This document shows positions 4,545 to 32,666 of a stretch of DNA of 34,590 nt, piece by piece. The stretch spans positions 1-34,590 of the forward strand of contig NZ_JADEXQ010000066.1 of assembly GCF_015207035.1 (NCBI RefSeq), in the 5' to 3' direction. Position 1 is the stretch's first letter; every line of letters starts with the position of its first letter. This DNA comes from Romeriopsis navalis LEGE 11480 (GTDB taxonomy: Bacteria > Cyanobacteriota > Cyanobacteriia > Leptolyngbyales > Leptolyngbyaceae). A model generated the notes under the pieces. That model ran no database searches. It saw only the letters and a list, made by a program, of their open reading frames with translations, and was not told the DNA's origin. A program made the translations under genes and the position numbers.

Positions 4545-5345
4545 ATGTCTGGACATAGTAAATGGGCAACAATCAAGCGCCAGAAAGCGCGGGTTGATGC
4601 GAAACGGGCCAATGTCTTTACGAAGATTGCACGGGAAATAATTGTGGCGGCCAGGCAAGGTGCTGATCCCCTGGGGAATTTCCAATTGCGGACGGCGATC
4701 GATAAAGCAAAAGCGGCCGGCATTCCGAATGACAATATTGATCGGGCGATTGCCAAGGGCGCTGGTACCTGGAGCGATGGTGAGTCCCTGGAAGCAATGC
4801 GTTATGAAGGTTATGGCCCTGGTGGTGTGGCTTTAGTGATTGAGGCGTTGACGGATAATCGCAATCGTACCGCTGCCGATTTGCGCACGGCATTTAGCAA
4901 AAATGGCGGCAATTTGGGCGAGATGGGTTGTGTCAGCTTTATGTTTGAGCAAAAGGGCGTTGTGGAAGTGACATTTGATCTGACGCCGACCGGCCGGGGG
5001 CGCAGCAAAACGGTGGCAATGATCGATGAGGATGCACTGCTAGAAGCCTGCTTGGAAGGTGGCGCTGAGACCTACGAACTCAGCGAAATTGACAATGGCA
5101 AGGTGGCCGAGATTGTGACGGATATGGCGAATTTGGAGAACTTGAGCCAAGCTTTACGGGCGCGTGATTATCAGGTGACAGGTGCCGAGTTTCGTTGGAT
5201 ACCGCAGACGACAGTGGAAGTGACGGATTTAGGCCTTGGGCAATCCTTGATCAAGCTAATTGATGTGATTGACGAGCTTGACGATGTGCAGTCCGTTACG
5301 CCTAACTTCGCCATGAGTGATGACCTAATGGCGGCGATCACCTAA
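4545..5345 (+). CDS. yebC: YebC/PmpR (TACO1) family protein
   Basis: A 266-aa protein that opens with the family signature SGHSKWATIKRQKARVDAKR, followed by FTKIAREIIVAARQGADP and KAKAAGIPNDNIDRAIAKG (N-terminal three-helix domain, about 1-80). The middle domain contains YEGYGPGGVALVIEALTDNR and TAADLRTAFSKNGGNLGEMG. The C-terminal domain includes GAEFRWIPQTTVEV and ends LDDVQSVTPNF. Members were first named as DNA-binding transcriptional regulators; YebC-family and TACO1 proteins have since been linked to relief of ribosome stalling during translation. The protein is slightly longer than the usual 240-250 aa because of an insertion around residues 145-165 (DLTPTGRGRSKTVAM). It is transcribed alone. 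Confidence 0.95.
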   Translation: MSGHSKWATIKRQKARVDAKRANVFTKIAREIIVAARQGADPLGNFQLRTAIDKAKAAGIPNDNIDRAIAKGAGTWSDGESLEAMRYEGYGPGGVALVIEALTDNRNRTAADLRTAFSKNGGNLGEMGCVSFMFEQKGVVEVTFDLTPTGRGRSKTVAMIDEDALLEACLEGGAETYELSEIDNGKVAEIVTDMANLENLSQALRARDYQVTGAEFRWIPQTTVEVTDLGLGQSLIKLIDVIDELDDVQSVTPNFAMSDDLMAAIT

Positions 5346-5406
5346 ATCGGTTCGGGTGAGTTGGCGCATCGGTGGTTATCGAATTCGTTGTCGATCGTGG
5401 CATAGG

Positions 5407-5452
5407 AAAACTCCAGCGCGATTCGGGATGCCCCTCCTAAATCATGCTGGAG
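5407..5452 (-). terminator. Terminator-like hairpin of repeat unit 1
   Basis: On the minus strand CTCCAGC (5452-5446) pairs with GCTGGAG (5417-5411) and is followed by TTTT (5410-5407). An inner GGG/CCC hairpin sits in the loop. The GTATAGAGCA box ends 4 nt before the stem. The stem bases differ from the other two units yet pairing is kept. Confidence 0.55.
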
Positions 5453-5580
5453 CCTGTGCTCTATACGTCCTCCAACCTAACAATGGGGACGTCGGTCAGA
5501 CTTCCTCTAGACGGCTCATCCGATCGGGTGAATTTGTGTCGTTTGACACAAACGGGCCGCAATATTTCGTGGTAGACCAT

Positions 5581-5641
5581 AAAAAATCTCCGAAGTCTTT
5601 ACTTCAATTGGCTAAAAGCCTCTATCTGCAAAGCTCCGGAG
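5581..5641 (-). terminator. Terminator-like hairpin of repeat unit 2
   Basis: On the minus strand CTCCG (5641-5637) pairs with CGGAG (5592-5588). CTTT/AAAG forms an inner stem (5633-5630 with 5600-5597) and GGCT/AGCC an apical stem (5620-5610). The hairpin is followed by A and then TTTTTT (5586-5581), a good intrinsic-terminator tail on this strand. Confidence 0.6.
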
Positions 5642-5752
5642 TAGTATGCTCTATACTTTCAATTTTTATATTAGGTCTTGTCACTTGATGGTGACTTCCT
5701 CTAAGTGGCTCACCCGATCGGGTGGTTCTTGGGTTGTTCAACCGGCCATAAT

Positions 5753-5811
5753 AAAAACCCCGACACGTTTACTTTGATCGGCTAAAAGCCTTTCTCAGTA
5801 AAGCCCCGGAG
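5753..5811 (-). terminator. Terminator-like hairpin of repeat unit 3, nearest the deacetylase gene
   Basis: On the minus strand CTCCG (5811-5807) pairs with CGGGG (5762-5758) using one U:G wobble; on the plus strand the same position would be a C/A mismatch, which favours the minus strand as the transcribed one. TTTACT/AGTAAA forms a 6-bp inner stem and GGCT/AGCC the apical stem. TTTTT follows (5757-5753). It lies about 140 nt past the deacetylase stop codon and could end that transcript. Confidence 0.6.
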
Positions 5812-5952
5812 CAGTGCTCTATACTTTCAATTTTTATATTAGGTCTTGTCACTTGATGGTGACTTCCTCCGATCGGGTGATTCGAGTAAAACCATTTTTG
5901 TTTGTTGAAGCGGATGCAGTCGGTCGTGCCGCAATCATCGGTCGCGCCGCAG

Positions 5953-6870
5953 TTATAAGCGGTATTGTTGGTAGACTTCGCTTGCCGCCCGTTGCAGAAT
6001 CGAGTGGCGAAAGACCAAAGCATTCATATCGTCGGTGTAGCCTCCACCAATGACGCAGGCCACGGGGTAGCCGGCGGCAAGGCAGGTTGAGAAGACTTGC
6101 ATTTCGCGACGGTGGAGGCCGCTATTGGTGAGAGCGAGCTTGCCGAGGCGGTCGGCAATATGCACATCCACGCCAGCGTCATACAGGACGAGATCCGGTT
6201 TGACCTGAGTGAGCAAGTCCGGTAGGTAGCGATCGAGGGTTTGTAGGTAGGCCGTATCTTCGGTGCCCGCATCTAAGGGAACGTCGAGGTCGCTGGTTTG
6301 TTTGGTGCTAGGGAAGTTGATGCCGCAGTGCATGGAGAACGTAAAGACGCGGGGTTCGTCCTGGAAGATATAGGCAGTGCCGTCACCTTGATGGACATCG
6401 AGATCGACGATCAAGATTTTTTGCACCAGACCTTGATTCAGCAGGGTACGGGCGGCGATTGCCAAGTCATTAAAGATGCAAAATCCTGAGCCGTAGGTGG
6501 GAAAGGCATGGTGTGTTCCGCCGGCGGTATTACAGGCCAGACCATATTGCAGTGCGAGTTGGGCAGTGAGAATTGTGCCTCCCACCGCCGTGCAGGTCCG
6601 ATTTACCAGTACGGTACTCCAGGGAAAGCCGATACGGCGTTGGGCTTTGGGATCAAGGGTGCCGTTGTGATAAGCCGCGACATATGCCGGTGCGTGGACT
6701 TGTTCCAGAATTGTCGGGTTGGCGATGTCGGGTGTATGAAATTGCTCAGGGCCGGCCACACGATCGCGCAGCAGCATTTCATGAAGTTTCTTGAATTTGA
6801 CCATCGGGAAGCGATGGCTTGATGGCAGCGGAGCAGAGTAGTTGGAATGGTATACCAGCGGCAGATCCAT
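5953..6870 (-). CDS. Histone deacetylase-family (AcuC/APAH-like) zinc hydrolase
   Basis: A 305-aa protein from the ATG at 6870, where MDLPLVYHSNY matches the usual family start; a TTG at 6912 would add 14 residues. The arginase/deacetylase fold is recognised by GGTHHAF (117-123; tandem His 120 and 121 of the charge relay), DLDVHQGDGT (156-165) and DAGVDVH (231-237). Predicted zinc ligands are D158, H160 and D235. Bacterial members deacetylate small molecules, polyamines or acyl-lysine on proteins; the substrate here is unknown. Length is typical for the short cyanobacterial form. No partner gene is adjacent: it is divergent from a small membrane protein (about 190 bp) and convergent with yebC across the repeat array. 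Confidence 0.92.
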   Translation of the reverse strand: MDLPLVYHSNYSAPLPSSHRFPMVKFKKLHEMLLRDRVAGPEQFHTPDIANPTILEQVHAPAYVAAYHNGTLDPKAQRRIGFPWSTVLVNRTCTAVGGTILTAQLALQYGLACNTAGGTHHAFPTYGSGFCIFNDLAIAARTLLNQGLVQKILIVDLDVHQGDGTAYIFQDEPRVFTFSMHCGINFPSTKQTSDLDVPLDAGTEDTAYLQTLDRYLPDLLTQVKPDLVLYDAGVDVHIADRLGKLALTNSGLHRREMQVFSTCLAAGYPVACVIGGGYTDDMNALVFRHSILQRAASEVYQQYRL

Positions 6871-7056
6871 GACTTTTAGGTGCGTGAGTGATAACTGTCG
6901 TGGTGATTGCAATTTGTTAACAAATACTGCTTAATTATTTCACTTTGTAAGAGTTCTGAGGGATTGTTTTTTTCTCCCGTAGACTTTCGATCAGGCGCCT
7001 GTTGTAAAAATGTACAGCTTGCCTGAACGTTCGATTTATTGAGTATTTTCTGGCTT

Positions 7057-32577: not shown

Positions 32578-32616
32578 TCGTGCTGCGTGATTGAGTCTGA
32601 TACTCAAGTTATTTAA

Positions 32617-32666
32617 ATCAAACATCGCGGGGGTAATTGACTAGATTGTCCCCCGCGATGTTTGAT
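32617..32666. terminator. Perfect 17-bp hairpin between convergent DUF1825 and PBP genes
   Basis: ATCAAACATCGCGGGGG (32617-32633) pairs exactly with CCCCCGCGATGTTTGAT (32650-32666) around a 16-nt loop that can itself pair AAT/ATT. It has no U-tract. It is placed to act on both converging genes, 40 and 62 nt from their stop codons. Confidence 0.8.

Follow-up and report, generated by a model that had tools for sequence, protein, structure and literature searches.

The minus strand of positions 5407-5880 in the window (the whole 34,590-nucleotide stretch of Romeriopsis navalis LEGE 11480 DNA analyzed here) holds three tandem units, in the transcription order U3, U2, U1, which we read, with a probability of roughly 75%, as three sister copies of one small RNA (sRNA) gene, each having its own promoter and each specifying a trans-acting RNA of which the conserved box GTATAGAGCA is the 5' tail. 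Together with their relatives in other genomes, the three would make up a multicopy sRNA family that is new, though of a known kind, that is known from sequence alone and that has so far been met with in a single bacterial family. A sequence-only reading of this DNA had described three minus-strand units carrying GAGGAAGTC, GTATAGAGCA and a hairpin followed by a T-run, and all of these elements were found at those sequences; its suggestion that each unit is a predicted tiny RNA, consisting mostly of a hairpin whose pairing is kept while its sequence changes, agrees with what the comparisons below point to. The anatomy of the array and its neighbors is as follows.

5753-5880, minus strand: U3, the 5'-most unit; a palindrome-like site at 5880-5865 overlaps GAAGTC at 5866-5861
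5841-5836, minus strand: -10 element TAATAT of U3, followed by the predicted RNA tail GTATAGAGCA at 5824-5815
5812-5758, minus strand: hairpin of U3, with its T-run at 5757-5753
5581-5725, minus strand: U2, with the palindrome at 5725-5710 and GAAGTC at 5698-5693
5673-5668, minus strand: -10 element TAATAT of U2, followed by the predicted RNA tail at 5656-5647
5641-5587, minus strand: hairpin of U2, with its T-run at 5586-5581
5407-5531, minus strand: U1, with the palindrome at 5531-5516 and GAAGTC at 5504-5499
5479-5474, minus strand: -10 element TAGGTT of U1, followed by the predicted RNA tail at 5466-5457
5453-5411, minus strand: hairpin of U1, with a GGGGCA loop and its T-run at 5410-5407
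5861-5869, 5693-5701 and 5499-5507, minus strand: GAGGAAGTC, one per unit
5815-5824, 5647-5656 and 5457-5466, minus strand: the box GTATAGAGCA, one per unit
5647-5701, minus strand: 55-nt block identical to 5815-5869, the upstream region common to U2 and U3
4545-5345, plus strand: yebC-family gene, convergent with the array
5953-6912, minus strand: deacetylase-like ORF upstream of the array, named after the sequence-only reading and without an NCBIfam match

The hairpins of the window are 42-54 nt long, where a short CTCC/GGAG stem had been proposed, begin 3, 5 and 4 nt behind AGAGCA in the three units, and fold with z-scores of -3.15, -3.70 and -2.93 against dinucleotide shuffles. As had been said of the wobble pair of the third unit, this U-G wobble favors the minus strand, and the T-runs do too. 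A hairpin with a T-run is not rare in itself, and a loose hairpin-plus-T rule, applied to both strands of the whole window, returned 76 sites, the three units included; what is rare is the fixed place of the hairpin behind shared boxes. The identical 55-nt upstream block points to U2 and U3 being recent copies and would be the sign of a recent duplication or conversion; over a 63-nt stretch spanning their hairpins the two are 76% identical. The octamer GCGATCGC was counted 17 times against 0.6 expected, an abundance that is a cyanobacterial habit.

Further copies were found in the same genome. BLAST with the U2-U3 region led to a further place, on contig C153, where two tandem units, V1 and V2, lie on one strand; the interval is bounded by the gene for a UbiH-family FAD hydroxylase and by a divergent, J-domain-like gene that has partial matches to DnaJ. 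Lying between divergent genes, V1 and V2 have no co-directional gene upstream and precede the J-domain-like gene, which is co-directional with them and for which they may serve as a leader or an attenuator. The pattern CACCCGATC-N(2-28)-GAAGTC occurred at five sites in the 6.47 Mb genome and at none in the reversed control; the five sites are U1, U2, U3, V1 and V2, and at all of them the box comes next (exact in four, degenerate in V1), followed by a hairpin with a T-run. The same five units were returned from the genome by R1, a sequence model of the palindrome-plus-GAAGTC region, in a run that scored 150 of 419 candidates. For TGCTCTATAC, to which the box is reverse-complementary, the genome has 14 sites against 2 in the control: four are known units, two more, X6 (contig C115) and X7 (contig C70), have a hairpin and a T-run, and the remaining eight lie in or beside ORFs, with no hairpin and T-run in the stretches read. 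X6, having the common box and hairpin, is a convincing candidate for a sixth unit because the independent model R3 (described below) finds it at E 6.4e-8, and X7, which has no -10 element and an R3 E-value of 2.7, is a tentative seventh.

The palindrome itself, at up to two mismatches, occurs at nine places in the genome (five at units and four elsewhere) against 2 in the control, and an R1 scan of 61 loci that included the four places outside units found only V1 and V2. Another genome search, in which V1 was missed, gave nine matches, three of which were dropped (C70:25274, C17:33288 and C157:6168). On the plus strand of locus L133 (contig C157 of the source genome, about 1500-1620) we observed TTATAGAGCACAATACTC with a distant inverted repeat (GAGTATTG) and no T-run directly after the repeat, a possible degenerate copy.

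The distribution of the family extends to 11 other genomes of seven other genera, all within the window's own taxonomic family, which gives 21 units (seven of them in the source genome) in 12 genomes and eight genera as a lower bound, the tail-to-loop pattern described below having matched only one of the source genome's seven units. The units of the relatives represent at most about nine independent cases, since the five g7 units are orthologues, and they are not fully independent, coming from one family. Model R2, which comprises the box plus the stem and was built from composites of the genome's seven copies, was run on 39 family genomes and matched at E <=0.5 in nine of them, the source genome included. 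Six of its 12 matches outside the source genome were accepted (two in tandem in G031, two in G023, one in G009 and one in G007), and the other six (G284, G015, G026, G018, G009:C78 and G007:C82) were dropped because the box was mismatched or lay inside the hairpin, or because the hairpin was weak. Units found later in G006, G029, G033, G020 and G011, as well as the second G007 unit, were missed by R2, and G273 and G290 were outside its 39-genome set. The tail-to-loop pattern, ATAGAGCACA-N(12-42)-GGGCATYC, occurred at 15 sites in 13 of the 388 class genomes and at none in the control. We accepted 12 of these sites, in 10 genomes, and dropped those in G012, G325 and G351, which overlap ORFs and are without such a hairpin and T-run. 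In G325 and G351 (L165 and L166, about 1499-1538) the pattern lies at the start of a predicted pseudouridine-synthase-like ORF, named by eye, where GGGCAT overlaps the complement of the ORF's ATG, a coding coincidence. The unit of G011 was found through reading the yebC-ubiH interval; after it, on the minus strand of L106 at about 1160-1280, stands a second hairpin with a T-run, which opens with a further GAGCACAGGGG and looks like the result of a fusion of two units or of the addition of a second terminator. Three of the carrier genomes, G006, G029 and G033, are near-complete, with 4-5 contigs each.

BLAST with the U2 region against 58 genomes returned a single outside place (G031:C282, E 0.013), where no hairpin was seen; G031 carries two units elsewhere, and because this search missed them, the hairpins evidently diverge too fast for BLAST. 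R1 gave three weak outside matches in the 388 class genomes (G007, G107 and G342), with no unit at those in G007 and G342. In G007 (contig C247, L073, about 1530) the tail-like AAATATAGAGCACC stands behind GGTTAGAAAATGAAA, but the stretch that was read there shows no evident hairpin and T-run. Exact matches to GAGGAAGTC-N(30-38)-GTATAGAGCA were present in 21 stretches of named genomes, none cyanobacterial by title, and in 2 of viral contigs, and we take these outside stretches as chance or coding. Thirteen of the 21 (within L044-L063) are in Bradyrhizobium records, all in the same 50-base span, and are probably one conserved coding stretch.

The relatives carry a -10 element separate from the box. 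An element TANNNT starts 12-13 nt upstream of the box in all 13 tabulated relative units, in the forms TATTCT, TATCGT, TAATCT or TATCCT, against a background of 25 in 1300 upstream positions, and each of these 13 units shows the sequence -10, tail, hairpin, T-run. Reading of the G011 unit by eye gave TATCTT equally far from its box. In the source genome the element is found at -13 from the box in U1, at -12 in X6, at -15 in V1 and V2 and at -17 in U2 and U3, X7 having none. The sequence-only reading had called the box-to-hairpin spacing constant; across the five U and V units, AGAGCA to hairpin measures 3-10 nt and GAAGTC to AGAGCA 36, 38 or 40 nt, and the constant spacing is instead GAAGTC-19-TANNNT (n=5). 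Likewise, among the 19 units that have a -10 (X7 being left out of this promoter set), the distance from the end of GAAG to the -10 is 20-21 nt in 17. Because the separate -10 of the relatives keeps a fixed distance to GAAG and the box does not, GTATAGAGCACA most likely represents the first bases of an RNA and not the TATA-like promoter it had been taken for.

Upstream of these elements lies a 16-bp palindrome, TCACCC-N4-GGGTGA, which is present at >=10 of its 12 fixed bases in 18 of the 19 units, as compared to 20 of 9500 shuffled upstreams. Measured from its end to the -10, the palindrome lies at a distance of 35-36 nt in eleven units and of 23 nt in five, whose GAAG box is overlapped by the palindrome's right half; of the other two units, one has 46 nt and one 59 nt. 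The 13-nt difference between the two common spacings suggests that a half-site, GGRKGAAG, is repeated, and palindrome and GAAG together look like a candidate site of one shared regulator.

Counted from the box, the predicted RNA is 57-76 nt long (tail, hairpin and U-run) and begins with an unpaired 5' tail, continues into a hairpin whose stem covaries and ends in a U-run. The 12-nt box has a mean unpaired probability of 0.40-0.97 across 20 units. In 15 aligned units 11 of the 12 tail columns are invariant, position 2 being the exception, in an alignment of which seven rows come from the pattern demanding ATAGAGCACA and GGGCAT and others from R2; the conservation of tail and loop is thus partly built in, the relatives having been found either by the box-trained R2 or by a pattern that demands both. 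Among the copies found without the box, U1 and V2 carry GTATAGAGCACA exactly, U2 and U3 end differently (CATA and CACT), V1 has TAAAAGAGCACA and G011 has GTATGGAGCACA, with one change; the tail is kept with small changes. The apical loop is GGGG in 9 of 20 units, all of them in other genomes (9 of the 13 tabulated relative units), and the apex GAAUG-GGGG-CAUUC of G020 is a compensated change from GGAUG-GGGG-CAUCC. The other apices are UUU (U2, U3), UUGU (X6), GAGGUA (X7), CGGGCAUUA (V1), GGUA (V2) and UUUU (G009), and none of the seven copies of the source genome has the exact GGGG loop, U1 having GGGGCA.

The pairing of the stem is maintained across these changes. In ten rows taken from relatives only, 95.0% of the cells are paired, a percentage that is partly by construction, the rows being trimmed composites chosen with the hairpins in view, and 11 of 14 pairs show a two-sided change; none of 500 shuffles scored as high on any measure, and slid versions were 35.0-55.7% paired. 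The counts of two-sided changes rest on trimmed rows, gapped stem-composite alignments being excluded from them. RNAalifold, run on the untrimmed MAFFT alignment, returned only a 4-pair stem without two-sided change, which we put down to stems misplaced by one base in the alignment. As to the compensatory changes that had been claimed for the array, the comparison of U2 and U3 (CTCCG/CGGAG versus CTCCG/CGGGG) proved to be one-sided, whereas two-sided changes do occur among the source genome's seven copies and among the relatives; in the homologues of related genomes, a check set beforehand, the pairing is kept.

Model R3 was built from the ten relatives-only rows, without any source-genome sequence, and found the ubiH-side unit of G023, absent from its rows, at E 3.3e-6. 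Its E-values for X6 and for U1, which ranked first in the window at E 0.0097, place these two near the family consensus. U2 was found at E 0.15, V2 at 0.51 and U3 at 0.82, with an unrelated window site at 0.49, and V1 was not listed at E up to 5; R3 does not separate U2, V2 and U3 from noise, and it is promoter, box and position, not R3, that would tie U2, U3, V1 and V2 to the family. The best non-unit match of R3 in the window is a GC-rich hairpin at 32599-32666 (CATCGCGGGGG...CCCCCGCGATG), perhaps a terminator or a repeat.

The family also shows synteny. The order yebC >, < unit, ubiH-like > is present in six genomes, the five g7 genomes and G011, and yebC adjoins units in the window, G023, G007, G011 and the five g7 genomes (the g7 genes being named from N-terminal sequences, those of G006 also by search). 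The source genome has three units at yebC and two at ubiH; in G023 the two genes, on different contigs, have a unit each, both G031 units are at ubiH, and one G007 unit is at yebC. The yebC array and the C153 pair look like the halves of a split locus that once had yebC on one side and a ubiH-like gene on the other; in the simplest history that we infer, one ancestral locus was duplicated in tandem and later broken, each side keeping copies. G007 and G020 also share a unit location downstream of a nucleotidyltransferase gene (the G020 gene being judged by its N-terminal sequence). Absence of the unit at yebC-ubiH is common: the ubiH loci of 29 relatives have a unit at only three, and where yebC stands next to ubiH, as it does at six of these loci, four (G021, G002, G040 and G036) are without a unit. 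No unit was found beside the deacetylase homologue at any of 27 loci in other genomes (L011-L037). Near ubiH-side units of both Romeriopsis navalis and G031 we observed genes for hypothetical proteins (L009, 4241-5335; L147, 2665-3906) with similar N-termini (PDPED...FQQQI) and no NCBIfam match.

Several other accounts of the units were weighed against this one. It is quite unlikely, in our estimate, that the box GTATAGAGCA is itself the -10, with the RNA starting at the hairpin base as a bare hairpin that acts via its loop or via the act of transcription. X6, in which TTGACA-16-TATAGA would make the box its -10, and X7, which has no other -10, leave some room for such a promoter; the box is also close to the hairpin in every unit, and in U2, U3, V1 and V2 the separate -10 lies 15-17 nt, not 12-13, from it. 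Nevertheless, all 13 relative units have the separate TANNNT at 12-13 nt, GAAG keeps its distance to that element and not to the box, and the V1, g7, G007 and G020 copies alter the TATA part (TAAAAG, GAATAG) while keeping AGAGCACA, which argues against a -10, in which the key T and A positions would be retained. We consider it very improbable that the array is a stack of intrinsic terminators, devoid of RNA function, that ends the deacetylase transcript and shields yebC from convergent transcription, an alternative the sequence-only reading had itself named. All 20 tabulated units do end in terminator-like hairpins, the window array does lie downstream of the deacetylase ORF and face yebC, and 4 of the 14 units in other genomes (both of G007, that of G020 and the yebC-side one of G023) also follow a co-directional gene. 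However, the C153 units have no such gene upstream, the upstream gene is divergent in the rest of the 14 units (the second G031 unit following the first), and GAAG stands at a fixed distance in 17 of the 19 units with a -10. Furthermore, a terminator does not need the tail, and its retention in copies whose discovery relied solely on position or upstream region (U1, V2 and, with one change, G011) therefore counts against a terminator stack.

The nature of the RNA's action and the origin of its copies could also be read differently. An RNA that titrates a protein or ribonucleoprotein via GGAUG-GGGG-CAUCC, with the tail serving stability or processing and no base-pairing involved, is unlikely. 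Titrating RNAs are often multicopy within a genome, as the units are in several genomes, and the nine GGGG loops, together with the compensated closing stem of G020, speak for this possibility; against it, seven of the nine were found only through the pattern that demands GGGCAT, the other apices vary, and the exact loop is missing from the source genome's seven copies. A mobile repeat of the MITE or REP kind, spread in the source genome, is barely credible: it would account for several copies, palindromes and the identical 55-nt block, but the copies are syntenic between genera, the upstream region is common to only five copies genome-wide, and there was no phage match for the window array and no plasmid match for the G006 unit.

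We compared the sister sRNA genes proposed here to known systems. Rfam 15 returned only a tRNA for the window at gathering thresholds, no match for positions 5300-6000 at E up to 5, and, with E up to 1 allowed, none for eight loci of sisters and relatives. Rfam has models of Yfr1 and Yfr2, and the array and the eight loci differ from these RNAs in being without any Rfam match. Among the matches listed from the open-licence literature, no paper announced such a family, and none that printed TATAGAGCAC was cyanobacterial by title. Nearest in architecture is NsiR1 of Nostoc sp. PCC 7120, an RNA of ~60 nt encoded by 12 tandem copies that have separate promoters, some of the copies being identical and some divergent, located upstream of hetF and HetR-dependent, with a DIF1 motif in the promoters (PMC9045159). 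Both are cyanobacterial tandem copies with individual promoters, those of the array being known from sequence only, whereas the array's neighbors are yebC and a UbiH-family hydroxylase gene, not hetF, and TCACCC-N4-GGGTGA plus GAAG is what its promoters have in common. The search for a sequence link to NsiR1 found none, Rfam returning nothing, a result that is informative only if Rfam includes NsiR1. LhrC1-5 of Listeria monocytogenes are RNAs of 111-114 nt that pair through UCCC motifs, and the copies are said to act additively (PMC6794450). They resemble the present family in having several sister sRNAs per genome and a common short conserved motif (used for pairing in LhrC), and differ from it in their greater length and UCCC motifs; no sequence relation is claimed. 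Finally, Yfr1, Yfr10 and Yfr2 are likewise cyanobacterial sRNAs recognized via a short conserved motif, Yfr10 having the motif of Yfr1 and not its synteny or remaining sequence (PMC6778093).

To summarize how the sister sRNA genes might work, each copy would be driven by its own promoter, made up of the TANNNT -10 and of GAAG(TC) ending ~21 nt upstream, and the TCACCC-N4-GGGTGA palindrome above or overlapping GAAG(TC) would allow one shared regulator to use both elements. Transcription is predicted to start at, or a few bases from, GUAUAGAGCACA, which would give the 5' end G(U/A)AUAGAGCACA, and to stop at the hairpin's U-run, which would leave a terminator hairpin preceded by an unpaired 5' tail. 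Both the array and the C153 pair would descend from a single yebC/ubiH-like locus that was multiplied and then split. The RNAs would most likely act in trans, with the tail as a putative seed pairing with target mRNAs and perhaps a second contact made through the G-rich apical loop; the stem, needing only to pair, would drift. At start codons of the source genome, the exact 10-base complement of the tail, TGCTCTATAC, gave no convincing site.

It is possible, though doubtful, that one regulator drives sister RNAs that have the same 5' seed and different hairpins, the loops giving extra targets or a protein partner. If true, one signal would launch several RNAs with common core targets, and the family would be a two-site RNA module still evolving, with sequence selection confined to the tail and the apical loop. 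The case also illustrates that a conserved box beside a hairpin can pass for a promoter until relatives are seen. A start site, a seed, a terminator and a site for a regulator are predicted for the family, some of whose carrier genomes are near-complete, and, as diverging copies of one ancestral locus, its units may make a good case for learning what selection keeps in an sRNA.
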